Assembly (NCBI GenBank): GCA_017506865.1
Contig: JAFCMP010000076.1
Span: 62,001-126,000 of the forward strand
Length of the DNA stretch: 64,000 nt
Direction: 5' to 3'
Source of the DNA: Tribonema minus
Lineage: Eukaryota > Sar > Xanthophyceae > Tribonematales > Tribonemataceae
The notes below the pieces were generated by a model. That model made no database searches. It was not told the DNA's origin and worked only from the letters and a program-made list of their open reading frames with translations. Both the position numbers and the translations under genes were made by a program. This document shows positions 173-62,397 of this stretch, piece by piece (within the stretch, counting starts at the first letter, position 1; every line of letters begins with the position of its first letter).

Positions 173-1733
173 TGAGCCTGGGATTAGGGTTAGACTGATG
201 CAGGGGGCGGACAGTGCATATCCTGGCTCTGCTGCCTGTGAGCTCAGGCTATTGGTAGGGTGAGGAGTTAAGTTGACCGAGGATCAAAGCCAGCGTGATG
301 CAGCGTGGAGAGCGCATGTCTATGCTCTGCTGTGTGTACGCTGTGTTCGTGCGTAGAGCCTAGAGGTAGAATCAGCCATGATGTGTGCATTTGAGTATGA
401 GCAGGTCATTGCAATTGATTCGTAGGTATGATAGGGTTGGGGTTAGGGTAATCCTAACCCTATAGGCAGAAGCCTTCAACGGGTCATGGCAATCAGCTAG
501 GTACCAAGTGTTGCGCGCTTGCAGCTGCAGAATCATCCAGACCGACACTATCGTGTCAGTGAAGATCATGTGAATGCATTGTTATAGTGTGAACTACCAG
601 CTGGTGAATGCTATCATAGTTGAAGCTTCTGGACTGATCTGATGCTGATCTGATGAGGGCATACGTACATGTATTGCTGATAGTCATCTATGACTCCAGC
701 ATCCAGTACACCCCGCTCTATCTAAATGTCTCAAGTTGCATGTGCTTGTACATTGCCATGGGGTGCTTACCCCTGCGTACACTAGTTTGTGCCATTTCGT
801 CAACCATACCCATCTTTCCGACTTCATGCCAGGATTGTGTGCACGGCTTGTACATGGTCGTTGCCTGCTGCTCAGCACTGCTTTGAGGTTAGAACTGCGA
901 CTTCATCTGGAAGTTGCAAGGAGGGTCACCTTTCAGATGGTCTGCGTAGTGCGCCTGTCTTGACTCCTCCTCTTCTACTGTGGGTGCTTATGATTCTGTT
1001 GTTGGTTTTCCTGTTGTCTGTTGCAGTATGGTATGAACCCATGCGCCAAGGAGCCCGGCCCGGAAGGTAGGTGCTGTGGCTGGATGAGTAGCCCTACAAC
1101 TTTGGGTAGAGGCAATCAAGCAGCTGAAAACCCCACTTGGTTGCTGGCGCACTTGATGCTTGCTGCTTGTTTGCATTTGGCCAATGAGCCGATGACTGCT
1201 GCATAGTGTACATGGTTTCATTTTTTCAGTCCTCAATGTGCTACAAAATATTGGTGGGGTCTAGACTAGTCGTGGATGGCTTACAGTGGTATTAGGCAGA
1301 TACCCCAGTACTCAGCTGTAAGTACCACTTTAAAGTGCGCTGATGTATGATGCATCGCGGAAAGACTGATGCCCGTGCTGCGTCCAGATTACACTGAGCA
1401 CTTCATGCGACGGTCAGCGAGACAGTTGAGGCGGTTATTGCAGTTAGGGTTGCAGGTCAGAGCATCATGGTGTTAGTTGTTGAGCCCACGGGGCTTTATA
1501 TATTGTCAGTTCCTTCCGGGGCTGTGTCAATTGAAAAACTTAAAAGTATAGCAAAACTTGGTGTTTGCCTTTACATCTTGATGCTTTGTTTTACACTTTC
1601 TGAGCAGCAGTCATTGTTGTCACAACGCGCATTAGGTGACGCGCCTGTTGCACCTGCTGGGTCATCCAATAAGACCCCATTCTGCTCGCGTTATCCACTG
1701 GCGGCACTTTGAGCACGTGCTTCTGTGATGCAG
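173..1733. other. 5' region upstream of the ANK-BTB-BTB gene
   Basis: No coding region can be defended here. One possible small first exon lies at 1027-1066: it follows an AG acceptor, precedes GTAGGT, contains an ATG at 1041, and its phase would join the ankyrin exon at 1734. This is a guess based on splice signals and phase only. Confidence 0.35.
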
Positions 1734-4700
1734 TCATTTGGGCCAATGTGCTTTCATCCGGCAGCTCAGCCACCATTATGTTTACCCGCCCCCTCCCCCC
1801 CCAATTACACCAGGCAACACCCCCCTCGGCCGTGCCCTGCTGGCCCCCAACGGACCCCACCTGGACATCTGCGCAGCACTGCTCGACCACGCAGGCCCCC
1901 CGGTACTTGCCGTTGAAAATGCGGCGCTGGAAACGCCACTGGTGCTGGCAGCGCGCGTGCCCAGTGACAATCCCGCTGCCGTGAGGCTGCTGCTGCGCCA
2001 CTGTGGCGGCGACGCAGCGGACGCCAAGGCTGTGGTCAATGCACGCTCCGGTCACGCTGAGACGCTCACGGCGCTGTCGGCGGCGCTTGCTGCGGGCAAC
2101 GTGCGCGTGACGGCCGCACTTCTGCAGGTGAGCGCTGGCTGGTATCTAGGGCGTGGGGTGGGGGTAAAAACCTACCTCAAACCTGCATCTCAATATGCCC
2201 GGGTGACCTGGAATGCAAGTTGACTGAGTAGTTTCAGCAATGCAGCACGCAGTTGCATGTCCTTGCATGTTTGCAGTGAGTGCGGCGACTGCTGATTAGC
2301 ATAATCTGCTTTGTGGCCAGTCCTGCATAGGTCTGCGTGCACACTGCAAGCAGGTGTGGACAGTGCCGCTTGGTGTGCAGTGCACTTCAGCCGTAGCAAA
2401 CCTTGCTGTGTAATCTCGTATTTCTGGCTGCCTTGTGTGACATCGCTCTGAGGTGCTGCCGACTTTCAAGCTGATTGCAGTCAATTGGCAACCTGTGCCA
2501 TGGTGCTCTCAACCCTACCTACCGAATTACCCATCCAGATGATCCCTGCGCCATGGAACGTTGTCAATCTTGCTGCACTTCAAACTTTGACGCCGCTTTA
2601 AGTGCAGCAATGTGCTTGCCACGCTGCACATCGCAGCAGCAGTAACGATCATCATGTAGGTGGAGGCCCCCCCCCCCCCCCCCCACTTCTGGCATGTGCT
2701 GCCGCCTCCCTCACCCTTACTGCAGCTTCACCCTTTGTTGTTTGTTATGTTCACCACAGGTCACATGAATGCATGCCAGTTTTCCATCAGTGCTTGTTAC
2801 CTCTAAAACTTTTCAATCCAAAAAGAATTGATCAGATCAGATGGGCTCAACAGTCTGTCGCGGCCAACAAGTCAACCGCAAAATCTTTATTCCTCCAGTG
2901 GACTTGGTGTTCATGATTGTGCTTGATTGGATGCCTGCCCTATTGCGTCCATCGTGATATCGCGACCTTTGAGTTGAGACGGCGCCACCCTACAGCTCTG
3001 CGAAAAAGTGATTCTCTCTGCATCTGCTGAATCATCATCATCAGCTTATACCCCTTGCAAACCACCAGCGCAGCGCGCAGCAGACATGCCTACAACGCCC
3101 CATGTCACAGAGCCCAAATGTGGTAATCAATATGAACTCGACAACTACACAAACACGCAAATTCAAACTTCAACAAACACGCAAATTCAAACTTCAGCTC
3201 AGCTTCACGCTGAACATGAATTCTCGTGTTCAGACACCCGAACGTGTTACTACACCCACGCGCAAACTAAAACTCACCTTCACCTGCGACATGACCTCTC
3301 GTGCTGCAGCTTGGCGCCACGATGAGCCTGCGCGCGCTGCGGTCAGCGCAGCTCACGCCCCCCGCGGGCGCCGCCGCCGCCCCCCCGCCCCCCCTCCTCT
3401 CCTCCAACCTGCTGGATCTCTTGGATGAGCCTGACCGGGATAGCGGCGGCACCAGTGACGTTACGCTGGAGCTGCAGGGGGGGCAGCAGCTGCGGTGTCA
3501 CAGCGCGATTCTGGTCGCCTTTAGCGGGTACTTTGCGCGCACGCTGACTGCAGCGGAGGGGGCGGCAGCGGTAGATGAGCCGGTCGTGGTGCCATGTTAT
3601 GGGTGGGAGGCGGCGACGGTGGTGACGCTGGTGCGCTGCATGTACGCCGGGATGCTGGTGGAGCCGCTGAGGCAGGCGTCAACAGGTACGAGCTCAACTT
3701 CAACTACAACTTCAAGTTACAGCAATTGAATGTGGGTGATACTTTGAACGTATGTATTGTATGTACAGTTGGGTCTGGTGGGACCAGAGACAAGCACGCA
3801 AAGGTGAATCAGGCAGAGAAATGGTCATTTCGGAGCATCACATCTGCTGTGTGCACGTGATGAGGATTAGAGCCGCTGAAACCATGTTGTGCTGCGGTCC
3901 TACTGTCAGTGTCATCCGAGGCTTGTTGGGTCAGTTCATTCATCATTATCCATAATAGTTTAGACATGCGCTGTTGATGCGCACAATGAGGCTGCTATTA
4001 GTGTTCCAGTTTTTTAGCTGATATCCTGTGTGAAAGGTGACGTACAGTGACAAATGAGTTGAGGTTCAGGCTTTGCCAGGTTGCCAATGACAGATGCACA
4101 TGCAAACGATCATGGTCAGCACATTTGTGCTGCACAGGAGTAACTTGCTGACATTGACACCATCTGTATTGCCTGTCAAGCCTGAGGCACACAGTGGCAA
4201 CACTGCAGACGTCTTGGTCTAGTGTGAGCATGCACAGTGCATGCAGAGCATCTGCCCTTCTTTGGTATCCAATTGTGCTTACTGCAACATGCATTCGTGG
4301 AGCTGACTGCCTTCAAAAACCAGCTTGCTTTCATAATTGTGCTACAGGTGGTTCCATATAACAGGTCATGGCACCCCTGACCCTGACAGTCATCATGTTA
4401 TCCGTTGCATGCGCTGCAGACGAGCTTGTGGACTTGCTGCATGCGAGCCATGCACTGGGGTGCTCTCGCACCTTTGTCCAGGTGCAGCACGCACTGGGCA
4501 CGTGGGGACACGTAACCGACGCGACCGTGGTGGACCTGTTCCAGCTGGCAGCGGCAGTTACACTTTCCGAAACTTTCCGGGACCATGCAGAACACAGGCC
4601 CACAGCCATCATGCTGTCAGGTAGTACAACTGCCGCAGCGGTTGCGTGCGATGAAACAGCTGGACTTGGGCTAGCGCTAGGGTTACAAGCGGACAGCAAG

Positions 4701-7700
4701 GCAGCGATACTGGAGGCATACTGCGTGGCTCATGTGCAGCGGCAGGCACTTCTCGGCAGCGGCAACTCAGCAAAGCAGCAGGCGCTGCGACGGCGGCTAC
4801 AGGTGCGTGTGTATGTGTGGTTGCAGATGTGTTGCACATGTGCGTATTGTGCGACACATCGCACAGGCAGAACTCATCACACCAACCAGACCAAGATCTG
4901 ACAAGATAATTTGCAAATGTATGTCGACCTTCAGCATGGCACATCAGTGCTCAGCACAAACAAGGAGACACGTCCATGAGCGCTAGCCGCTACCGCAAAG
5001 TTGACGCCAACACCCATAGGAAAACTGCATGACTAATAAGGCCCTCTGTATTAGGCTGCTGACCTTCCCGGCATGCATGCAGCTGCCTGGGACACAACCT
5101 CAGCACTTGCCTGTGTTGTCATGCTCAATTTCAAACGTCTCGCTCAACTAATATTTTCATTGCACGCCAGGATGGCCTCGCCACTGACCTCTGGTCACAA
5201 GGCTATCATTTATACATACTTGGCTTGTAAGCGTCAGACGCACACAACGTGCTTGCAACTGAGACATTATTGCCGGACTGCGGGGATAGCCTCCTGACTA
5301 AGTTGCTGAGAAACTGCATGTCAAGTTTTCTCAAGCTCAATGTTGCTGATCAAACTTCTTGGTGTATGCATTGCCGTAAAAGTACCATCTTTCAGTATGG
5401 CAGCTGTCGCATTCAATGACGGGCAGGATGGCTTCAACCTCATCACAACATCTACTCTTCATCATGCCGCACTTGCAATCACAGCGCTAACTGCGCATAT
5501 CTATTGCCGTCTTTGATGCTATACAGCAGATACCTGTGCTGAACATGGCGGATGTCTCCCTCAAAGAGAGCGAGCTGTCATGCACTGCTTACCTCGGCAC
5601 TGGGCTGTGCCACCAGTGGCTAAGCGGTCAGACTGGCAACAAGGAACTGCAGCTGAAAGCCAAGCAGCAGAGAATCAGGTGCGTGCGCCACCTCACCCTT
5701 GAACTCACCCCAATTTGACCAGGGCACTTCTTGATGATCAGCCGCTTGCACAGTTGCGCACAGAGAGCACTGTTACGTCCTTCAAGCCTGGATCGTTGCT
5801 CCCGCGCTTTGTGGTTTGAGCTTTTGTACTTCGAAGTATGTGTTTTGCTACAGTGCACTGCCGACAACTTGACGCCAACACAGCCGAACAGCTTATATCT
5901 TGCACTTTGTTGAACCTGTGCCCATCCAATCAGTGTTGTTAATGACGCAAGTACGGGTAGCGACGTAAGTACGCGTAACGACGTAAGTATGCAGGATTCT
6001 GGGTAATGACGGCTAATGACGGCAAACCCTATTTGCTGCAATGTCATAACCTTAGCCCTAACCCTGACTAAAAAGAGGGTTAAAATGCTCCAGGGCGCAT
6101 TGGCGCATGACAGAGCATGCTAAATACCATCAGAAACTACTGCATGGCTGCATGGTCGATGCATGCAAATGTGACCACTAGCACTACCATGAGTATATGG
6201 GTACAAGTGTCATGAATTCATGTACGCACTGCCACGATGCCATTTGCAATAAAACATGCCGTGGCAGCAGCGGCACAGATCGCCAGCAGCAACACTTGTC
6301 CCAGTGAGCCTGATTGCCAGAGCAGCAACACTCGTTAAACACAGCATCCCTCAGTCTACAGTATCCTCTGTCTTGAGCATGATGCCTCTCGCCTCCGAGC
6401 ACCTCGCTCGACGTGACCCTCGGCAGAACTGTTTAGGCCCGATTTCCTCAAACCCTAGCCAGGTCACACCCTAAACCTCCTAACCCTACTTGTGCCAAGC
6501 CCTAACCCCCCTAACCCTACTTAGGCCAAACCCTAAGCCGTCATTACCGTAAGTATGTACGATCCGGGCTAATGACGCCATAACGCGTACGTATTTACCC
6601 CCAGGACACGTGAATAACAACACTGCATCCAATTGCCACGCTGCAACTTAAGCATTGCTGTGGTAATGGTGTGCACTGATTCATTGCCCTCTGTCTGTTG
6701 CGCTGATCTTCAACTATCTGCTGCAGCTATGACGACATGGTGGTGCTACTGATGGACCCCCCTCGTTGCCGTGCACTGGGCATAATGAAAGACCAGCGCA
6801 GGCACCTGCTCACTGCTGCCATCCAGGGCATGGGACCCACCTATATACCTACCCTTCCACAACCTGCTCGGACCCACCCCCAACCCTCCGCACATGGCTA
6901 CGACAGCGCGGCCGGTCAGCAAGGTCAACTTGAAATCCATCCCCGACCCTTCTCTGAGGGCCTCACTCTTGCTGCCAGCAACATGTCTGAGGAGCCTTGG
7001 ATGGAGCCACTGCCGCACACACCCAACGTTGTGGTACTGGGCGGGGGTCTGCTGCGGCTGCTGCGCAGTGCGCAGCACTGTGATGTGGAGATCAGTGTGG
7101 GCAGGACAGTATTTCGCGCGCATGCGTGCATCCTGGCTGCCCGCTCTGAGAAGGTGAGAAACAGAAGCAAAGTAACGTATGTTCATTGCTGGTAGGAATC
7201 GTCTGCCTTGCATGGGGCAAGCTGTCTATGGTCGTTTTATTACGGCACATTGAGTACTAGTTACTACGCTCATATACCCTCGTCACTCTGTAGGACTTCC
7301 TTGCGGCATTTACGGCTACGGCCAACTTCAACATCAACACACGGCCTTCAAGGGTTTAACTTTGGGTTTGTTGGGTGTGTTCGCTAGCGCGCCGCCCGCC
7401 TACAGTAGCTTGTCTGCCGATGGTAACGAACTCAGTATCCGGCATGAGTACAACGTGACTGTTGCTGTTGACGTGGAGAAGTGCTGGGCACGCAAGTTCT
7501 GTGCAAGCATTCTCCAAGCTGGGCTGCGCACCTTGCTAAGGTGGCTTGTAGAAATACTTGCAGAAAGCAATCGTGTATACTCTTAAGATCTGCCACAATC
7601 ATGATGCACTCCCTTCCTACAGAGGTGCCCTCAGCCATGCACAGTCACCTGTCACAAATGCTAAGCGCGTTTTTTGCGTGGAAATGAATGCATTGTGTTG

Positions 7701-10021: not shown

Positions 10022-10106
10022 GTAGGGGTGTACTTTTTATTAATTCTCACTCAGGGCGCGAAAAAGCCCAGATGATTGGCACCTAGCTGTAAGGAATCTA
10101 CATGTC
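10022..10106 (-). mobile_element. LINE A, very short 5'-truncated copy (a)
   Basis: Only the last ~71 bp of the element's 3' end plus the 14-bp target copy. It matches the 3' end of the larger copy at 10195, including the stem GGGCGCGAAAAAGCCC. It is bounded by identical GTAGGGGTGTACTT sequences at 10022 and 10107. Confidence 0.75.
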
Positions 10107-10194
10107 GTAGGGGTGTACTTTTATTAATTTCGCTTCGCAAGGGGCGCGAAAAGCCCTCTCTTTGGATGTGCACTCAATGCAACATTCCTTCTCC
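10107..10194 (-). mobile_element. LINE A-related, very short 5'-truncated copy (b)
   Basis: A diverged relative of the neighbouring 3' ends: it keeps ATTAATTTCGC and a GGGGCGCGAAAAGCCC stem but has its own inner sequence. It lies between GTAGGGGTGTACTT at 10107 and GTAGGGTGTACTT at 10195, so the flanking target copies differ by one G. Confidence 0.65.
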
Positions 10195-12413
10195 GTAGGG
10201 TGTACTTTTTATTAATTCTCGCTCAGGGCGCGAAAAAGCCCAGATGATTGGCATCTAGCTGTAAAGGAATCTACATGTCGTATGACAGTCTGAAAGTGTC
10301 GCAACGACAACCACTCAAACGCCGCCGCCGCCAAATGGCATCTCGGGGTCCTCCCCTACGTCCTCCTCCATGTGCCCCCCCCCCCTGGATTCTGCCATGT
10401 GTGTCATGACACGGCCAGAGTACGCCATGTGGAGCGCTGCCGACAGTGCCGAGCGTAAGCGCGCCAGGGCGATGCCCTTGAGAGCTTTAGGGCGCGCTCC
10501 TCCGGGCACTGACATCCTGCTGGCATACTCCGTCGCCACAGCCTCCAGCAGCTTCCGCCCCTGCTCCTCAATGCTGCCAAATGACCCTATTGCCAAAGTG
10601 GCAAGTTTGTAGCAATTCTGATCATAATGACCAGAATAGTGGGTAGTCTTGGCGGCCTCTTGGTCGCGGCAGCATCGCTCGGGGTCTGCTGCAGTCTTCG
10701 CCGCCCGCGACGCCACCTGTGCCTCGAAGCAGGTAACGTCCACCATGAGCGGTAGGTGGCGTGTCGGGTCGTCGTAGCCGGTCACCGGGAAGGCGTCGGC
10801 AGGCAGCACGATGTCCATCCTGCGACTCCCCGGCGGCCCGGCGGACCCCAGAAACGGCGTGTAGTCCTCGTCCACCAGTCCCGTTTTGAGGTATTGCCGC
10901 AGGATGCGCTGCGTGGCCCTCTTGACGCTATTGTGGACAATGGTGTCGTGCGCCTTGACGCGTGGCTTGACACAGCCGTGCATGCAGGGTGCCGCCCGGC
11001 GACTTCCCGCACAGTTGCAGCCTGCCGTCTGCTCCTCTACTCCGATGGCGCGTTTGACGGCCAGCTGCCAGGATAGGCCATCGAACGAAGCCGTTGTGGA
11101 GTACATGGGCTCGTTGAGGAATGCCATGCCGATCGAGTGCATGTGGCGCTGCGACCGGAATCGAGCAAGTGCTTGCGTGCGTTGCGTGCCCTGCGGCAGC
11201 TGTTGCAGGTCCGCCTCCACCTTATCTGCAAGCTCGGTAGCGACGGCATCTGCAAGCGCACTCTGATTGGGGCGCTTCAGGCTACACTGCAACTGCAGAG
11301 CACTGGCGTCAAGTACGCAAGCAGTATCCGCACCAGTGCCACCACCTGCTGTCGGCCGCAGCGGCGGCTGCTGCGTAGGTGGTTGCTGCTGCAGTGGCGT
11401 TAGCGCTGGTGGCAGTATATGTTCCAGCTTGTCACCTGTTGCTGCACGTAGAGATGTGGCAGCTGTGGCGATCGTCCGCATGAGGGGCAGGCGCGCCACC
11501 TCTGCTGCTGCTGCGCCTTGTAGCATTGCTGGTGTGGAACGCGCAGCGCCTGCATTGACGGCTGCCGCTGCTGCGTGCGCTGGTGCTGCAGCTGCGCCGC
11601 CTGCCGTTGCTGCTGCTGCCAGTGGTGTTGCTGCTGCCGCAGGTGTTGGTGCAGCACCTGCCGCATTGGCCGCTGCCACCGCCATTGCCGCTGTCGCAGC
11701 CGGCACGGTTGCGGCGCCGCCTGCCGACGCTGCTCCTGTTGCAGGTGCTGCAGCAGCCCTTAGGCTAGTAGGGCCTGTAGCAGCTGTGTTGCCTATGCCC
11801 GCAGCCGCTGCTGTTGATGCTGCAGTTAGTGATGCCGCCGAGGCCACTTGAGGTGCAACATGTGCTGCCGCTGCTGCAGCAGCCTCTGATGCTGGAGCAG
11901 CTGCTGCTGCCGCCGCTGCTGCTGCCGCCGGAGTAGTTGCGCCGTGCGCCGCCGCTGCTGCTGCTGCCGCTGGTGCCGCCTGTGCTGCCGCCGCGGCCCC
12001 TGATCCAGCGGCAGCTGCGTCGTGTGTTGCCGGAATGGCTGCGCCATAAGAGCGGCCAGCCGTTGATGCAGTTGCCGCTGCCGGAGCGGTCGCGCCTCCA
12101 CTGGCAACCGCCGCTGCCGCTGTAACAGTTGCCGCTGCTGATGCTGCTGGTGCTGGTGCTGCTGCCGCTGCTGCCGGTGCCGCTTGTGTTGCCGCATCCT
12201 CAGCAGCGTTGTCTGCAGCCGCTTGTGGAGCCGCCTGCTGCAGCACCCCCGCCCATCCAGAGAGTGCTGGTTGCAGCGCTTGCAACGTGCCCGCCACATA
12301 CGCAGCATCAGCGATGTCGCAGGCGCTGGTAATGCCAAGGCCGCCATGCCGTATTGGGAGTCGCGCTTGCTGTAAGGCTGGGCCGTGCGCTGCCAGATGG
12401 AAGTGGGCCCCAC
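10195..12413 (-). mobile_element. LINE A, 5'-truncated copy (c)
   Basis: Non-LTR retrotransposon copy holding the region behind the reverse transcriptase plus the RLE domain and 3' UTR. The 13-bp sequence GTAGGGTGTACTT is present at 10195-10207 and again at 12414-12426, a target-site duplication. The 5' end is cut off inside the coding region at 12413. The 3' UTR contains the stem GGGCGCGAAAAAGCCC. Confidence 0.85.
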
Positions 12414-12429
12414 GTAGGGTGTACTTCAT
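10315..12429 (-). CDS. LINE A C-terminal polyprotein fragment with RLE-type endonuclease
   Basis: A 704-residue open frame. The apparent ATG and next few codons come from target DNA, so the true start is missing. Residues 1-60 hold the post-reverse-transcriptase RHGGLGI motif. Residues ~70-340 are a low-complexity Ala/Thr-rich linker encoded by imperfect GCT/GCA repeats. Residues ~475-620 resemble the RLE of R2-like LINEs: a CNC...CMHGC cluster, VHNSVKRATQRILR, RRMDIVL, MVDVTCFEA, then K in AKTTHYSGHY, consistent with a PD-(D/E)xK fold. The C-terminal helical region includes LATLAIGSFGSI. Resemblance is by motif, not by a search. The frame is open throughout, so the insertion may be fairly young. 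Confidence 0.75.
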   Translation of the reverse strand: MKYTLRGAHFHLAAHGPALQQARLPIRHGGLGITSACDIADAAYVAGTLQALQPALSGWAGVLQQAAPQAAADNAAEDAATQAAPAAAAAAPAPAASAAATVTAAAAVASGGATAPAAATASTAGRSYGAAIPATHDAAAAGSGAAAAAQAAPAAAAAAAAHGATTPAAAAAAAAAAAPASEAAAAAAAHVAPQVASAASLTAASTAAAAGIGNTAATGPTSLRAAAAPATGAASAGGAATVPAATAAMAVAAANAAGAAPTPAAAATPLAAAATAGGAAAAPAHAAAAAVNAGAARSTPAMLQGAAAAEVARLPLMRTIATAATSLRAATGDKLEHILPPALTPLQQQPPTQQPPLRPTAGGGTGADTACVLDASALQLQCSLKRPNQSALADAVATELADKVEADLQQLPQGTQRTQALARFRSQRHMHSIGMAFLNEPMYSTTASFDGLSWQLAVKRAIGVEEQTAGCNCAGSRRAAPCMHGCVKPRVKAHDTIVHNSVKRATQRILRQYLKTGLVDEDYTPFLGSAGPPGSRRMDIVLPADAFPVTGYDDPTRHLPLMVDVTCFEAQVASRAAKTAADPERCCRDQEAAKTTHYSGHYDQNCYKLATLAIGSFGSIEEQGRKLLEAVATEYASRMSVPGGARPKALKGIALARLRSALSAALHMAYSGRVMTHMAESRGGGHMEEDVGEDPEMPFGGGGV

Positions 12430-12475
12430 ATGTACGTATGGACTTGTATTTATAAAGGCCCAACTTCATATGTAC
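12423..12475 (-). mobile_element. 27-bp LINE B-type 3' tail with 13-bp target duplication
   Basis: ACTTCATATGTAC occurs at 12423-12435 and 12463-12475, enclosing 27 bp (12436-12462). Read on the minus strand the insert matches the last bases of LINE B near 25915-25943 (TTTATAAATACAAGTCC). It is an extreme 5' truncation, and LINE A copy (c) later inserted next to it, overlapping its target copy. Confidence 0.75.
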
Positions 12476-19439: not shown

Positions 19440-20510
19440 AACGAGAGACGGCCCCAGCGCTGGTGATTGCCATTCGAGAGGCACTGCTGGACGGGATGGT
19501 GGCATACGTCACGCAGGGGGCGGGCAAACAAGGGGCCAGCATGTCATCGATGCGTCAACTGACCGCGCATGCAGCAGCCCAACCTGCGTGTACTTTTTAT
19601 TAATTCTCGCTCAGGGCGCGAAAAAGCCCAGATGATTGGCATCTAGCTGTAAGGAATCTACATGTCGTATGACAGTCTGAAAGTGTCGCAACGACAACCA
19701 CTCAAACGCCGCCGCCGCCAAATGGCATCTCGGGGTCCTCCCCTACGTCCTCCTCCATGTGCCCCCCCCCCCTGGATTCTGCCATGTGTGTCATGACACG
19801 GCCAGAGTACGCCATGTGGAGCGCTGCCGACAGTGCCGAGCGTAAGCGCGCCAGGGCGATGCCCTTGAGAGCTTTAGGGCGCGCTCCTCCGGGCACTGAC
19901 ATCCTGCTGGCATACTCCGTCGCCACAGCCTCCAGCAGCTTCCGCCCCTGCTCCCCGATGCTGCCAAATGACCCTATTGCCAATGTGGCAAGTTTGTAGC
20001 AATTCTGATCATAATGACCAGAATAGTGGGTAGTTTTGGCGGCCTCTTGGTCGCGGCAGCATCGCTCGGGGTCTGCTGCAGTCTTCGCCGCCCAGTACAC
20101 GTGAACAATTCGACACGTACGGGACACGCGCTCGCTGCCTCGCAATCGAGTACGGCACAAATGAAACGGACAGCGCGGACAGCGGGCACACGCTCCTGCT
20201 GCAACGCCTACAGGAAGAGGGCGTGTGGGGACGGCCCCTCGGTTTGTCTGTGTGGGCCATTGTTGCAGCGGTCTACGCGGTCTCGGTGACGGTGTGGCAG
20301 GCCGAGCCTCAGGCCACTGGCAGCATTCAAAAATCAACAGGGCTGGTGCTGGCACAACTGATGGGGCTGCCAGCGGTATTCGCACCGGCAACTCCAGCTC
20401 AGCCTGACTGCCATCTGGATGTGCTGTGGACGCCGCCTGGGCTATATACAAATGTGGGACACTTTGAACTGCTTGTCGCCCCTGCGGCAGCTCCGCCCTT
20501 GCCAACCACT
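19440..20510 (+). pseudogene. OTU-like cysteine protease region of LINE B, split by LINE A
   Basis: Before the insertion: DGPSAGDC (candidate nucleophile Cys, about 19447-19470), then in another frame AIREALLDGM and MSSMRQLTAHAAAQ. After it: REQFDTYG, then LLQRLQEEGVWGRPLGLS and finally NVGHFELLV (candidate catalytic His, about 20450-20475). The order GDC, then L..G.WG..L.LS, then H(F/Y).LL fits OTU proteases. Cysteine proteases of OTU or Ulp1 type are, from memory, known in some non-LTR clades. There is a frame change just after GDC. Domain identity is by motif only. Confidence 0.55.
19588..20093 (-). mobile_element. LINE A, 5'-truncated copy inserted into LINE B
   Basis: About 506 bp, nearly identical to 10198-10704 of LINE A copy (c), including the stem GGGCGCGAAAAAGCCC and the end of the coding region (VATEYASRMSVPGGARPKAL). 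The 5' truncation is at 20093; beyond it LINE B's OTU frame resumes. The 3' end abuts GTGTAC. A clean target duplication could not be seen. Confidence 0.85.
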
Positions 20511-20926
20511 GTGAGGAGAGAATTATTTGGGGCAATCCCTGGATACTAAAAGGCACCACAGGACATTAATGCAATGATCAAGTTGAAGATTGCACAACCA
20601 TTTGACCGAACATCAACAGTTCGCTTCAGCTCGCTCTGCGGATGATGGTGCAATCTTCAAACTTCAAATTGGACAAACTTGACTCGAGACGCTACTGTAG
20701 TTGAAGTACAACTTCAAGTGGAAGTTTAACATCAACTGTCACGCTCAGTATTGACCATCATCTTCAATTTGAAGTTTGACGGTTGCATCACCGTCCGCAC
20801 AGCATCCTGAAGCGAACTGTTGCTGTTCAGTCAAATGATTGTGCAATCTTCAACTCGATCATTGCATTAATGTCCTGTGGTGCCTTTTAGTATCCGGGGA
20901 TTGCTCCAAAAAATTCTCTCCTTGTG
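20510..20926. mobile_element. 409-bp MITE with ~140-bp inverted arms, TGTG target duplication
   Basis: The element spans 20514-20922 and is flanked by TGTG (20510-20513, 20923-20926). It begins AGGAGAGAATT and ends AATTCTCTCCT; the arms stay similar for about 140 bp each, roughly 90 percent identical. Removing the element and one TGTG rejoins LINE B's reading frame exactly (LPTTV to TASATTQ). No open frame of its own. Confidence 0.85.
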
Positions 20927-23626
20927 ACAGCGTCGGCGACCACTCAAGCTGACAGCACCCACATCACGGCTCCGAGTCGGACACAGCCCCGTACTGCGCT
21001 GCAGTTGCCACAGCAGCCTGAGCCACTGAGGTGTCCACTATGCACACTGGCATTTTGGCAGCTTGGTCAGAAAGAGGACAGCAAACAGCGAGGCAAACTG
21101 TCAGCTGCGAGCCGCATGGCACCGGTAGTGGCCCACTTCAACGGTGGTAGCTGCACGAGGTCGATGCTGAACCCTGAGGCGAGCACATCACACTGTCAGC
21201 AAAATCCGGCGGCAGCATACACCAAGGGAATCCGGCAGCAGGTTGATCACGACCCATCCGGTGACCGTGCCCCTTCAGGCAGCAGTACCTGCAACACTGG
21301 GGCACACCATGCCAAGCGTGTGCAGGAGATGAGCACCATGTATGGTTGCACGGCAGAAGACTTCCTACGGGCGGTAAGGAAGCTGAGTGCATGCACAGGT
21401 GCCTGCGGTCTGGTCCATATGTCAGCCAGCGCGGGGCAGAGGCAATGCGCGCTGACCTCGCCATGCCACACGTGTCGACGGAATGGAAGCGCCCCCACGC
21501 GCGCACGCCCGGCAGTACCCCCGGGCCAGTCCGAGGGCGGGGGTGCGGGTAGCGACGGCGCGGCCGCGGCGGCGGGGGCTGCCGCAGCGACACCTCCAAA
21601 GCCACCGGCGGTGCCGGCTAGTGGCGCTGCCAACTCAAAGTCCAGCAAGAAACGCCCGGCGGCCACGGCAACCGGCGCGCAACGCCGGCGCCGAACGGCA
21701 GTTGCTGCGGCACCGCCTGGCAGCGCCGGCAGCCGCACTCAGTCTAACAGCCTAAGGCTGCAGGACAGCAGCCCCCCCCACGGGACGGCCGTGGGATGGG
21801 CGGACATGGACTTGGACCCGCCGGACGATGCCGCGTCACCGCCCCCCCCGACCACCACCACCAGTGGCAGGCCCTCAAAGCCCCAGGCACGAGCATCCCT
21901 GGCTTGGGACCTCTCGACGCCCTCGGTCGTCCACGCACTTGACCAGACCAATGAGGCGGATCTACTGCTGCTACGGTTCACCACAACTGCCAACCCCTTC
22001 CGCACTCAGCTGCAGTGCACCCAGTGGGCACGGCTAGTGGAGCACGCCACACGACTACTGGCGGACGCCACAGACAGTGCACGTGAGGCGGCACGGGTGC
22101 GCCTCCACCATGGTGCCGGGGCGTTTGCTCATCAGGTTTCTCAGACTCTAGTGCAGCGCGGCTACAGGTTGCTGCACCTGCTAGCAGCAATGGCCTTTGG
22201 TAGGCAACCGGAGGGAACCGGTATGCCGCCTGCGGCCCGGCTGGCAGCGTTGCTGTCTGGCGACTTTGCGGAGCTACTGAGAAAGACGCTGTCAGCAGCA
22301 GCGGCGCTGCGGGCCCCCAAACCAAACAACGCAGCTACGGCGTCGGCACAAACGAACTTCGATGCCGACTGGACGGAGGCTGACTCCAGGCAGCAAACAG
22401 CATGCGCTGCCCTCTCAGGCAAGCGACGGGGGGTAGGCCTGGCTGCCGCACGACTAGAGGCGCGTGAAGCATGCGCCCCAGCAGACGAGGTCACGGCACA
22501 GGTGCTGGCAGCAAAACACCCTGAAACTGGCACCCGGCCCGGGGTAGTCGATACGCCAATGGAGCAAGTGCGCGGCCTGGTACGCGACGCCCGGCGGCAC
22601 TGCTTGCACGGCGCAGGGGTGGCAACGACCGCCGGGCCCGTTGGCAGCGGCAGTCCCGTCTTCGAATCGGGTCAGGCGCATGATCGCAGCGATAGGCCTG
22701 AGGATGCTGCCAGCGCAGCCGGACGGCGCCTCGAGGTGGAGGCGACAGACATACTGTCGACCTTGTCCGCAGCAGGGGCGGGGAAGGCAGGAGGGCTGGA
22801 CGGCCTACGCTATGAACACCTCTTGATGGCCGCTGGGCCTGGTGCACCAGTGAAAGCAGCCACCCGCCCCGTGGGCAGTGCCTCGCCAGGACTAGCTGGT
22901 GATTCAGAATCGGATGTGATGGAACCGGCATTCGCCCATCACCTGGCCAAGGTGTTCACGACGCTGCTTGTTGAGCCCGAACTGCTGCCGGAGCAATCGC
23001 AACGGCTTCTCCGCGCCGCGGCCCTCTCAGGCATAGCACAGAAGCGGCGTCCGATCGCCTGCTCCAGTGTCTGGCGCAGACTCCTCGGGTCCACAGCGGC
23101 ACGGAGTGTCAAGGGCAAAATATCGGGGCTGCTGGCCTCCATGTCGCAGTTTGGCGTAGGATACCGGTCTGGCGTCGAGCATGTGGCAGCGCGCGCGCGC
23201 GTGTGGCACGAGCTGTATGGCACCACAATCCAGCTGGACTGTGAGAACGCATTTAACAGTGTGGATCGCGCCGCCATTGTGCGGGGACTTATGCTCTTCT
23301 GTCCGGAGCTGCTCCCGCACTTTGAGTCCGTATACTGTGGTGACACTGCCCCAGAGATGCGAGTGGAGGTGAACGGTGAAGCTCGCATTATCTGCTCCCA
23401 CCTAGGGTGCCAGCAAGGGGACCCTCTAGGGCCGCAGTACTTTGCAGTGGCAGCGGCCTTCCTACTCTTCTACCCTGATGGAGTGAATGCGACGCCCGGC
23501 AGTATGCCGGCCTACGGCCACAGCACAGCGGAACCGCCAGCCCCGCACTGCGCTTTCCTGGATGACCTCAACGTGCTGCAAGCTGCCTACTTCGACGATG
23601 AGCGGCCGCTGGGGTGGCAGAGGTGA
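20924..23626 (+). CDS. LINE B polyprotein: zinc-finger-like segment and reverse transcriptase (first part)
   Basis: A 900-residue open frame; its first codon is the last GTG of the MITE duplication, so this is a continuation, not a start. Residues ~37-80 include LRCPLCTLAF and a later H..C, resembling the N-terminal zinc finger of R2-like elements. Residues ~200-300 are Ala/Pro-rich. Reverse transcriptase motifs: LDCENAFNSVDR at residue ~771 (catalytic Asp), GCQQGDPLGP at ~828, FLDDLN at ~878 (the Y/FxDD box). The frame breaks soon after the DD box, at a shift near 23610 into the next open frame. Confidence 0.8.
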   Translation: MTASATTQADSTHITAPSRTQPRTALQLPQQPEPLRCPLCTLAFWQLGQKEDSKQRGKLSAASRMAPVVAHFNGGSCTRSMLNPEASTSHCQQNPAAAYTKGIRQQVDHDPSGDRAPSGSSTCNTGAHHAKRVQEMSTMYGCTAEDFLRAVRKLSACTGACGLVHMSASAGQRQCALTSPCHTCRRNGSAPTRARPAVPPGQSEGGGAGSDGAAAAAGAAAATPPKPPAVPASGAANSKSSKKRPAATATGAQRRRRTAVAAAPPGSAGSRTQSNSLRLQDSSPPHGTAVGWADMDLDPPDDAASPPPPTTTTSGRPSKPQARASLAWDLSTPSVVHALDQTNEADLLLLRFTTTANPFRTQLQCTQWARLVEHATRLLADATDSAREAARVRLHHGAGAFAHQVSQTLVQRGYRLLHLLAAMAFGRQPEGTGMPPAARLAALLSGDFAELLRKTLSAAAALRAPKPNNAATASAQTNFDADWTEADSRQQTACAALSGKRRGVGLAAARLEAREACAPADEVTAQVLAAKHPETGTRPGVVDTPMEQVRGLVRDARRHCLHGAGVATTAGPVGSGSPVFESGQAHDRSDRPEDAASAAGRRLEVEATDILSTLSAAGAGKAGGLDGLRYEHLLMAAGPGAPVKAATRPVGSASPGLAGDSESDVMEPAFAHHLAKVFTTLLVEPELLPEQSQRLLRAAALSGIAQKRRPIACSSVWRRLLGSTAARSVKGKISGLLASMSQFGVGYRSGVEHVAARARVWHELYGTTIQLDCENAFNSVDRAAIVRGLMLFCPELLPHFESVYCGDTAPEMRVEVNGEARIICSHLGCQQGDPLGPQYFAVAAAFLLFYPDGVNATPGSMPAYGHSTAEPPAPHCAFLDDLNVLQAAYFDDERPLGWQR

Positions 23627-24825
23627 TCCGTCGGCTTGCGGCAGGGGGCCTACGCGTTCGACCAGACAAGTCGCTGGCCATCGCCATGCGCGGCACAGTG
23701 TTTGATGAAGCGGCCAGAGCACGCCTGCGCGCCCTTGACATACCGTTTGTGGACGCCACCATGCCAGAATCCAGTCAGGGCTTTACGTCGGTCGGGGTAC
23801 CGGTAGGGCACCCAGCCTATGTGCATGCTGCCATGAGCAAGCATCTTGTTGACGCAGGGACATGGCGATTGTCGTGGCAGCTAGCTGGAATGGCGCGGCA
23901 TCACCTACAGGCAGCACAGTTCATTCTGCGCAGGTCACTGACGAAGCGCATGGGCTTCTTAGCTGGGGTCGTTGACACGGCTTTGAGTGAGACATGGCTG
24001 CACGCATTTGACGGGTTCTGTGCATGGACGCTTGAACGCATGCTGCACCTGCACGGCTGCGCTACCGCGGCAGTCATGAAGTCACACCTGCTGGCCGCCT
24101 GCACTGCTGGTGACAATGAGGTAGCCAGCAGTGGCAGCGTGCTGGTATTGCCGCGCTTGGGCCCGCCAGAACTCACGGACATCGCAGTGCCACTGCGGGC
24201 GTCACGGTTGCCGGAGCGACGAGGCGGTCTGGGCATGCCGCTTTTGGGGCTACTGGCACCAGCCGCATACACGGCCCAGGCATGCACAACACTGCGGCCT
24301 GCAATAATTCATGCCACTGTGGCAGCAGGGGCCCTGAGGCTCGGCACTGACGAACACGGCGCAGTCACCTGGTTCGCGCAGCACTCATGCGCAATACGCG
24401 AGGACCAGGGACTGCCGCCAATCATCGAGGCCGTGCGACGCTCTACGCGAGCGCTGACAGCTGATGGCGGCGAAAAATCACGCACAGCTGTGGCCGAGCA
24501 GCTCCCAGCATCGTTGCTACGGTGGGCAGCAGATACGACGGCCGCAGCGTCGACGCTCCCCACTGCGGTGCAAGCGATCTACGCCGCAACTGCCGTCACG
24601 GAGACGGGGACCACTGAGCCAGCCCCACACACCCACGGCATTGTGCCTGGCGCCGAGGCGGCGCTGCGGCGGCGACCGTACCTGGCCCTCAAGCCGCTGC
24701 CGCGGCTGCCTCTTCCACGCCCGCTAAAACACAAACTAGCGCGGAAGAAAGCAGCTGCAGCGGCGGGCAGGAGGACGACGACGACGACTGGGAGGCCTAT
24801 GCTGACGAGATCTGCAGGAAGGTAG
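23614..24825 (+). CDS. LINE B polyprotein, post-reverse-transcriptase region
   Basis: A 403-residue open frame in the next phase after the first frameshift. It opens with VIRRLAAGGLRVRPDKS, the RT thumb-side continuation (the conserved K of LNxxKS-type motifs). PERRGGLGMPLL near residue 205 is the typical R.GGLG motif downstream of non-LTR reverse transcriptases. Towards the end the natural frame changes again: an acidic stretch EEDDDDDWEAYADE is encoded in another phase. Confidence 0.75.
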   Translation: MAEVIRRLAAGGLRVRPDKSLAIAMRGTVFDEAARARLRALDIPFVDATMPESSQGFTSVGVPVGHPAYVHAAMSKHLVDAGTWRLSWQLAGMARHHLQAAQFILRRSLTKRMGFLAGVVDTALSETWLHAFDGFCAWTLERMLHLHGCATAAVMKSHLLAACTAGDNEVASSGSVLVLPRLGPPELTDIAVPLRASRLPERRGGLGMPLLGLLAPAAYTAQACTTLRPAIIHATVAAGALRLGTDEHGAVTWFAQHSCAIREDQGLPPIIEAVRRSTRALTADGGEKSRTAVAEQLPASLLRWAADTTAAASTLPTAVQAIYAATAVTETGTTEPAPHTHGIVPGAEAALRRRPYLALKPLPRLPLPRPLKHKLARKKAAAAAGRRTTTTTGRPMLTRSAGR

Positions 24826-25865
24826 TGCCCCGCCGCCGGCGCGGTCACTTCACGCACGGACTACAAGCCGGCCTTTCAAATGTTCTTCGACGTCAATACG
24901 AGGACTGCCTGGTGGAGGACCTAGAGGCTGCCTCGGCTGGTGCCGTGGGCAAGCCGACGCAGGCTACACTTATTGGTGACTCGCGTGACACCAGCCGCCG
25001 CCGCCAACAGGCTAGCGCGCGGGTCCTGGCGCAGCTGCGCAGCCAGCGTGCGTCCGGGGCAATGGCGTGGATGAGCGTGCCACCCGCTGCCAATGACCGC
25101 CCGGGTGCGGCGCCCATGTCCAGTATGGCAGCAGCCACGATGATTTTGGTTGCGATCTTTATAGACGGGTGGGGCATACAGGGCGAGGTGTGCCCATGGC
25201 GGTGCAGTGACGTGAGCCCCACCTCCACGCATGCGATCAGCTGCCCCAGCCAGCACATACGGGGGCACAACGCGACACACACTGCCCAAAAGCGGTGCCT
25301 ACAGCGCATCTTGAGACAGCACCATGTCTCTATTGTCGGCAATGAGGACGCTAGCGTCTTCAAGGTACCGGGGTATCGGGCGGACACAGTCATTGACCCA
25401 GGGTGTCTGCACTTTAGCAGTGCATACCAAAACAAGGGAATAGTGCTAGACACAAGTGTGCGCGCGCCCACAGCGAGCTCGTACCTGACAGGCAAAACAA
25501 ATGCCTCGAACACGGACGGCTATGCTGCTGGGGTGGGGGAGGACGCGAAGGTCAAGCACCACACCGGCATCTTGACGTCATCTTGGGCTTTTGTGCCATT
25601 CGTGCAGGAGTCGTACGGACGGCTGGGCAAGCAGACAAGCCTTTTTGTTAAGGAGTTGGCAATGCACTCAGCACTGTGCTCAGGGGGGGGGAAGGCAGAT
25701 GTGTTACGCAAGGCCGGGTTAGCTAAGCGTCAGATCCACATTGAGCTGAGCATATCGCTGGCGCGGGAGTTGGCGGAGCGCGTCATGGCATACACACGTG
25801 GAGCGCGAATGCTGGGCTGTGTTGCGGCGCCGGTATCCAAACTCCTAGGGCACAGCGCAGACTAG
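24825..25865 (+). CDS. LINE B polyprotein, RLE-type endonuclease region
   Basis: A 346-residue open frame in the third phase. Residues ~122-148 form CPWRC...H(A)ISC, a CCHC-type cluster. It is followed by GHNATHTAQKRCLQRILR (R/HN motif), GYRADTVID (~184), GIVLDTSV (~207) and K in AKVKHH (~244), the order expected for a PD-(D/E)xK restriction-like endonuclease. The C-terminus (FVPFVQESYGRLGKQTSLF) matches the helical tail of such elements. Stop at 25863-25865, then a short 3' UTR to 25943. Confidence 0.75.
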   Translation: MPRRRRGHFTHGLQAGLSNVLRRQYEDCLVEDLEAASAGAVGKPTQATLIGDSRDTSRRRQQASARVLAQLRSQRASGAMAWMSVPPAANDRPGAAPMSSMAAATMILVAIFIDGWGIQGEVCPWRCSDVSPTSTHAISCPSQHIRGHNATHTAQKRCLQRILRQHHVSIVGNEDASVFKVPGYRADTVIDPGCLHFSSAYQNKGIVLDTSVRAPTASSYLTGKTNASNTDGYAAGVGEDAKVKHHTGILTSSWAFVPFVQESYGRLGKQTSLFVKELAMHSALCSGGGKADVLRKAGLAKRQIHIELSISLARELAERVMAYTRGARMLGCVAAPVSKLLGHSAD

Positions 25866-26012
25866 GCTGCTGCGTTGACGCAAGCTTTTCGATTGCATAG
25901 GCAACCCGGCCTCCCTTGGGCCTTTATAAATACAAGTCCATACGTACAATTGTATACTCAGTTGCTGAAACTAGTGCTGCCAGGTGCAACATCACATCGC
26001 GGGAAGTAGAAC

Positions 26013-61864: not shown

Positions 61865-62397
61865 GTACATCTACTGCTCGTTAGCACCGAGAGGTGCGGC
61901 AGCACTCGCGGTGGCGCTGATGGTGGCGAGGGTGCATCAGGCAGCAAGGGGATGGGAGATGCTGGCTGTGAGCAGGAGCTGCGGAGTCGCGTGTGGTGAG
62001 GATACGGCTTTGGGCAGCAGCAGGGGATATTGGAACATGGGGATACGGATAGCATCAGGGCACACTGTAGATCGTTTGCTTGAACACGCAAGAAAGAGAA
62101 CCTCGGCCAGGCACGTCAGCGGCGTGCTTAGGCAAGGAATCGAGGACCGGGCGCCTCTGGCCCAAATGTATACTAGAGGCATAACCGCGGTCCTCCGGCG
62201 TTTTCGCTCAAGAGATGGAGACATCGGCTACGATAGGTGTGGCTCAGACTGGGTGCCGCTGTGTCTGCCCCCCATGAGTCTAGTACAAGCCTGCAACGCA
62301 GGGCTCTAAGGGCCCGTCCGATTTTAGTTTTTTGCATTCTTATCCAACGCATCAAGCCCACCTTGGGGCTGCTATAAATACAAGATCATAAGTACAT
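61865..62397 (+). mobile_element. 521-bp 5'-truncated LINE fragment inside a PPR exon
   Basis: The insert 61871-62391 is flanked by GTACAT (61865-61870 and 62392-62397). Removing it restores the PPR frame across the site (minus strand QLDQMIAMYREMRASG). The plus strand ends with a coding-like frame stopping at 62307-62309, then an ~80-bp 3' UTR with CTATAAATACAAGATC, closely resembling the LINE B 3' end (TTTATAAATACAAGTCC). It is a third RLE-type LINE lineage or a diverged B relative. Confidence 0.8.

Follow-up and report, generated by a model that had tools for sequence, protein, structure and literature searches.

Stacked LINE 3' ends in Tribonema minus suggest serial insertion at a regenerated TGTAC target

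In the genome of Tribonema minus, four element fragments stand side by side with copies of one short word between them, and the locus raises the question of whether they arrived one after another at a target that each insertion renewed, or together, and how long that target is. The window, meaning the whole stretch of 64,000 nucleotides that was analysed, covers positions 62,001 to 126,000 of contig JAFCMP010000076.1 (assembly GCA_017506865.1); coordinates refer to the window unless a locus number (L) is given. We consider it very probable that the array grew by serial target-primed insertion at a regenerated TGTAC, with 5' truncation, into a same-strand stack.

Layout of the array

A sequence-only reading had placed GTAGGG(G)TGTACTT at 10022, 10107, 10195 and 12414. 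These coordinates hold, and every copy of GTAGGG(G)TGTAC lies at an element boundary, the extra TT of the 13-mer being common to the duplication and the T-run of the LINE tail. That reading also put each copy directly after an element 3' end, which is correct for three of them, whereas the copy at 12414 lies at the truncated 5' end of a 2.2-kb element. All four elements are on the minus strand and each 3' end points left. The native left flank stops at the first copy of the target duplication, GTAGGGGTGTAC (10022-10033), which is followed by a 5'-truncated 3' end of LINE family A of 73 bp (10034-10106), a second GTAGGGGTGTAC (10107-10118), and a 5'-truncated 3' end of family B of about 76 bp (10119-10194), a family with 139 exact tails genome-wide. 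The third copy, GTAGGGTGTAC, has a G count one lower (10195-10205) and precedes a 5'-truncated LINE A of 2.2 kb (10206-12413) that retains the end of the ORF, with an alanine-rich linker and a C-terminus resembling a restriction-like endonuclease (RLE), and the 3' UTR. At its truncated 5' end stands the fourth copy, GTAGGGTGTAC (12414-12424), and then TTCATATGTAC. The left 13-bp duplication ACTTCATATGTAC of the last insert (12423-12435) overlaps this preceding target; the insert itself, a 27-bp 3' tail of LINE family C, occupies 12436-12462, and the right ACTTCATATGTAC 12463-12475. The 27-bp tail had been described, accurately, as flanked by a separate 13-bp duplication that overlaps the next target, and its assignment to a LINE B stands if that name meant the family ending at 25,943, as it probably did; the tail does not derive from the 75-bp element. 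Its source family is represented by a long family C copy on the plus strand (read from 20891 to 25943, approximately 20.9-25.9 kb) with three overlapping frames.

Exact duplications flank the 73-bp, 2.2-kb and 27-bp inserts on both sides, and for the 2.2-kb LINE A the exact match spans 12 bp (10194-10205 and 12413-12424), counting one ambiguous C. The two duplications around the family B insert agree exactly over only 8 bp because of a one-G difference: the first two duplications of the window each contain four Gs, the last two only three. This departs from the earlier description, and one gain or loss of a G accounts for it under either growth order of the stack. The commonest tail sequence is matched exactly by 67 of 99 sampled A tails, and the 73-bp tail differs from it at two positions, which is too few for dating. 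The repeated 13-mer alone is unremarkable: allowing up to two mismatches, it was found twice where 0.79 occurrences per shuffled window are expected, and 17 of 100 shuffles reach a count of two. The weight of the observation lies in the word standing exactly at element junctions and in the same geometry recurring at other loci.

A short target word

The target had been proposed to be 13 bp long, and the junctions of other tails do not bear this out. Among 48 A tails sampled irrespective of their junction, the preceding five letters are TGTAC in 35 and another NGTAC in 8, or NGTAC in 43 of 48, and the letters upstream are nearly random; the information amounts to 1.0 to 1.7 bits at each of the five word positions and to at most 0.22 bits per position further upstream. 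These tails were taken from C1-C3 of the whole-genome A-tail list (51 there, 3 left out) because the queries of the first samples contained the junction and favoured TGTAC; two of them (L104, L105) have a common left flank. The remaining five follow TGTCC, TGCAC or GTACC, without GTAC in its usual place, and a right copy is present in only one of them, at 7 bp (L073). Variant first letters are found in both copies of the duplication, namely AGTAC at L081 (11 bp), CGTAC at L091 (12 bp) and L106 (10 bp), and GGTAC at L107 (9 bp), so GTAC acts as target and not as part of the element. Five Ts open 47 of the 48 tails, and there is therefore no variable poly(A). The downstream preference was drawn from 34 right flanks, several of which open with letters resembling a tail, and this inflates its T excess.

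Of the exact tails in the whole genome, TGTAC precedes at least 993 of 1462 in family A, a lower bound in that the second pattern also requires exactly TTTTT, and 439 of 1014 in family C. The exact tested junction is absent in 469 of the 1462 A tails and 575 of the 1014 C tails, so that either the target tolerates other letters, above all in C, or tails do not always begin at one letter. The window has 159 occurrences of TGTAC, both strands counted, which scales to approximately 393,000 in the genome. Taken together, the junction sequences show the target to be the short word TGTAC and not a 13-bp stretch, with the cut probably behind the C. Elsewhere in the window, further tails at 19593, 27098 and 62392 (families A, E and D, respectively) each stand directly after TGTAC, and the 3' end of the long family C copy (20891-25943) adjoins TGTAC read on the minus strand.

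Stacking across the genome and its explanation

Similar stacks are present at many genome sites, and the window locus is not special. In the first loci, 39 of 96 tails have a second copy (at least 9 bp) of the pre-tail letters downstream, in many cases with another tail following at once; one of these duplications (L060) is not at GTAC and is probably spurious. The stacks include one of five elements (L003) and others at L004, L007, L008, L010, L022, L090 and L102. Across all 110 loci, a biased sample in which L001-L008 come from a query spanning the window stack, 29 of 67 same-strand adjacent tail pairs share at least 8 bp, compared with 2.2% of random pairs, and in the fairer sample L071-L110 the figures are 7 of 15 and 3.4%; the random pairs include linked pairs, which makes the control stricter. 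Less than 8 bp is shared in 38 of the 67 pairs (8 of 15 in the fairer sample). The first 100 of the 1462 A tails form 11 same-strand adjacent pairs within 1600 bp and no opposite-strand pair, where 0.74 of each is expected.

Stacked tails make up 7 of the 48 sampled A tails by rule and 10 by hand, the latter adding one in L081 and two in L109. A rough target-preference model, with all 34 right flanks for the profile and 26 for the occupied sites, has 1.9-7.8% of new insertions re-landing on an older duplication (for 1500-6000 existing copies). Compared with 7 of 48 observed, target regeneration therefore explains part of the stacking, and perhaps most of it if copies are many; stacked tails still exceed the prediction approximately two-fold or more.

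The order of events is legible in some stacks. At L003, L004, L090 and L109 the 5' end of the earlier element lies inside the later duplication, which therefore records two events, and at the last three of these the later duplication includes letters of the earlier truncated end, so that their order is known. By hand, we read five cases as growing into the truncated-end copy of the older element (the last pair of L003, L004 twice, L090 and L109) and two as growing the opposite way (L007 and L030); L005 is possibly a third opposite case or else a template jump. A strict growth direction was rejected on these cases, and as growth is seen both ways, both new target copies seem usable. The script count for L030 is opposite to the hand reading, one tail start being off by one. 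Set aside from the direction reading were the other rows in which the script count was not zero, namely L007 at 1506, L008, L010, L021, L022 at 1238, L045, L060 (twice) and L073 (twice), in which a tail start was off, an outer copy had the same letters or the partner sequence was not known.

Several other explanations can be weighed against serial insertion. The tandem unit might have travelled whole, carried by 3' transduction of a compound tail or copied in a segmental duplication; the sequence-only reading had itself named copies of the unit in unrelated flanks as what would speak for this and against its own view. Family B and A tails are neighbours in both orders at L002-L006, and near-identical copies of one B+A locus (L011 and L013) mean that some block duplication occurs. 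However, at the junctions of L002-L008 the compared B/A pairs differ in B end points, truncation points and duplications (GTATGTAC at L002, CCCTGGTTGTAC at L003, ATTCCTTGTAC at L004), stacks vary in family order, truncation point and duplication, target letters stand at each window boundary, and the 622 bp to the left of the window array occur once in the assembly. Given the differing truncation points and duplications and the single-copy left flank, the array therefore did not, in all probability, move as a block; a duplication of the whole stretch, as at L011/L013, is not seen for it, and we regard this explanation as very improbable. No empty site for the window array was found in the same assembly. 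The locus pairs L011/L013, L014/L018 and L104/L105 have common flanks as well as common insertions, which suggests that the assembly contains duplicated or allelic contigs. A single event is somewhat easier to envisage for some stacks, with reverse transcriptase jumping between template RNAs or several complexes re-using one nick. At L005 the outer ends share CTGTAATGTAC and the A-B joint retains little beyond GTAC; some junctions there and at L060 and L073 have little shared duplication and may reflect template jumping or some other event, and the modelled re-landing rate is lower than either stack count. Against this stand the target copies of approximately 10-12 bp at each internal boundary of the window, unlike a template-jump product, and the two-event duplications at L003, L004, L090 and L109, and a single event is in our view unlikely.

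GTACA follows most sampled tails on the sense strand, as it would if TGTAC belonged to the element 3' end and the repeats were element sequence instead of target duplications. This was rejected as scarcely credible, given that right copies ending in TGTAC stand at the far truncated end beside unrelated flanks and that both copies keep the variant first letters. Permissive chromatin could also gather insertions with same-site re-use only incidental, and adjacent pairs that share no long duplication are no rarer than the others (38 of 67). Sharing of at least 8 bp by the remaining 29 is nevertheless about 20 times the random rate, and the opposite-strand A pairs number zero in the first 100 tails, which makes this explanation improbable. 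The main points of serial insertion are supported. The proposals that each insertion regenerates the target, so that new copies land there, and that the array records target-primed insertion with 5' truncation agree with the window and with many other loci and stacks; a further correction is in the cast, three families (A, B and C) taking part instead of two.

The junctions, duplications, motif, independence of the stacks and orientation bias, all read directly in the DNA, fit the following course. A LINE-encoded endonuclease would nick behind TGTAC, tolerating some deviation, mostly in the first T. The 3' end released there would prime reverse transcription, beginning at the fixed 3' end of the element RNA; we infer the nick position and this chemistry from established LINE mechanisms, and the RLE-like domain would be the enzyme. 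Synthesis would often stop early, leaving many copies as short 3' tails, and repair of the staggered cut would duplicate approximately 5-13 bp ending in TGTAC, giving two usable targets per insertion. One of these copies would then receive a later insertion, whether from the same family or from another that targets TGTAC, and same-strand stacks would build up. The window array would comprise three such events at one TGTAC (A 73 bp, B approximately 76 bp and A 2.2 kb), with the 27-bp family C insertion as the fourth, at a second TGTAC 11 bp away. Family B could have been mobilised by its own machinery or by that of A.

The families and their relation to known elements

Variable 5' truncation, a constant 3' end and target duplications are all present in these LINE families. 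Family A has a long ORF, and among the 95 near-identical copies that were scored many have it at 1786 aa. The 1536 aa scanned contain a reverse transcriptase (Pfam RVT_1, E 1.7e-10), which scores 41.4 bits where the cut-off is 29.6. Its N-terminus has C2H2-like letters by eye, without a Pfam match. The C-terminus, readable in L040, has CKLC...H...C together with RMDIV, LMVDV and KTTHY, which by eye resemble the D..D core and the KX2KY lysine of an RLE as given in PMC5678591. The knuckle, also read by eye, is CX2CX8HX3C in L040 and CX3CX8HX3C in family C, in both cases with the last spacing one residue short of the CX2-3CX7-8HX4C form in PMC5678591. Neither Pfam nor solved structures gave a match to a restriction-like endonuclease in A, and solved-structure searches in general gave no credible match. 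Predicted structures of the C-terminus and the reverse transcriptase were poor (mean pLDDT 40.4 and 34.5) and were not used, so the RLE assignment in family A rests on motifs; its reverse transcriptase is a Pfam match. A search for relatives of the reverse transcriptase in viral contigs confirmed none.

The long family C copy, ending at 25,943, also has an RLE-like C-terminus, laid out like that of A at 25% identity. Its reverse transcriptase scores 20.3 bits in Pfam, under the cut-off, and aligns to that of A with 29% identity over 247 columns; as judged from these alignments, the source of the 27-bp tail is a diverged family of the same type as A. At least two family C insertions are reduced to the last 26-27 bp (12436-12462 and L112), and 40 of the 1014 exact C tails have no unchanged continuation to nucleotide 32, hinting at a preferred early stop. 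Family B has its last 3' letters in common with A. A first view of B as non-coding was withdrawn, since several copies (L017, L035 and L037, at 487-496, among them) have sense frames of 412-496 codons, compared with a 95% shuffle value of 210; some of these frames extend beyond the examined stretch, and in other copies they are broken. The two B copies scanned gave no Pfam match, and no reverse transcriptase was found in the stretch scanned. Families D and E are known mainly from tails. A structured 3' RNA end was considered and dropped, the folding energies being ordinary (z -1.56, -0.28 and -0.21).

Family C also meets other tails end to end. It stands tail to tail with another C around a single GTAC at L111 and with A through one GTAC at L113, L114 and L022. 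Such joins are expected if both strands of the palindromic GTAC can be cut, and their presence suggests that both strands are used. Among the first 100 of the 1014 C tails, three opposite-strand neighbours and no same-strand neighbour lie within 1600 bp (0.51 of each expected); same-strand stacking of the A type was not seen in this set, and C may differ from A in its use of the site. A tentative proposal, to which we give not quite an even chance, is that two or more diverged LINEs of the RLE type (A and C), together with B, D and E, form a guild that shares one self-renewing GTAC target. If the guild is real, a LINE can spread with a target the size of a restriction site, and its own insertions join its habitat. 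Stacks whose duplications can be read document how target-primed insertion is repeated in nature, down to tails of 27 bp, and if a short dispersed word is truly used by an RLE-like LINE, they offer a system for the evolution of target length, from strict specificity to random insertion.

RLE LINEs (CRE, R2, R4, NeSL/Utopia and HERO) are described in passages of PMC5678591 and PMC4640811 as having one ORF with an N-terminal zinc finger, reverse transcriptase, CCHC knuckle and RLE, and in a passage of PMC4640811 as mostly target-specific. The targets named in these passages are rRNA, tRNA and U2 snRNA genes, spliced leader exons, transposons, microsatellites and telomeric repeats, and the HERO clade is said there to hold many non-specific families (PMC5678591, PMC4640811). 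As far as these passages go, family A would be alike in a long ORF with reverse transcriptase and, by motif, knuckle-like and RLE-like residues; its target differs from the named ones in being a dispersed word of approximately five bases. We found no description of a TGTAC-targeting LINE among the openly licensed papers listed as matches, and none of the matches listed for TGTAC holds the word. MoTeR and other telomere-targeted fungal LINEs form arrays of truncated copies that re-use one target and are telomere-bound, whereas the tails here are spread along contigs. Zepp and ZeppL of green algae insert into existing copies and build nested arrays mostly of 5'-truncated 3' ends (a passage of PMC8226300, citing Higashiyama et al. 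1997); they are of L1 type and clustered at centromeres, according to passages of PMC8226300 and PMC11005252. Nested insertion into older copies and stacks of 3' ends are, on that description, common to Zepp and to the families here. The differences are that the tails are dispersed over many contigs, that the protein is RLE-like by motif and, as far as these passages go, that the site is the word TGTAC. Family A does not qualify as an L1-type, centromere-confined element of the Zepp kind: an APE domain is absent from its Pfam matches (1536 of 1786 aa scanned, the C-terminus separately) and its tails lie on many contigs. By analogy, the behaviour at TGTAC most closely resembles Zepp stacking among those described, here in dispersed form.
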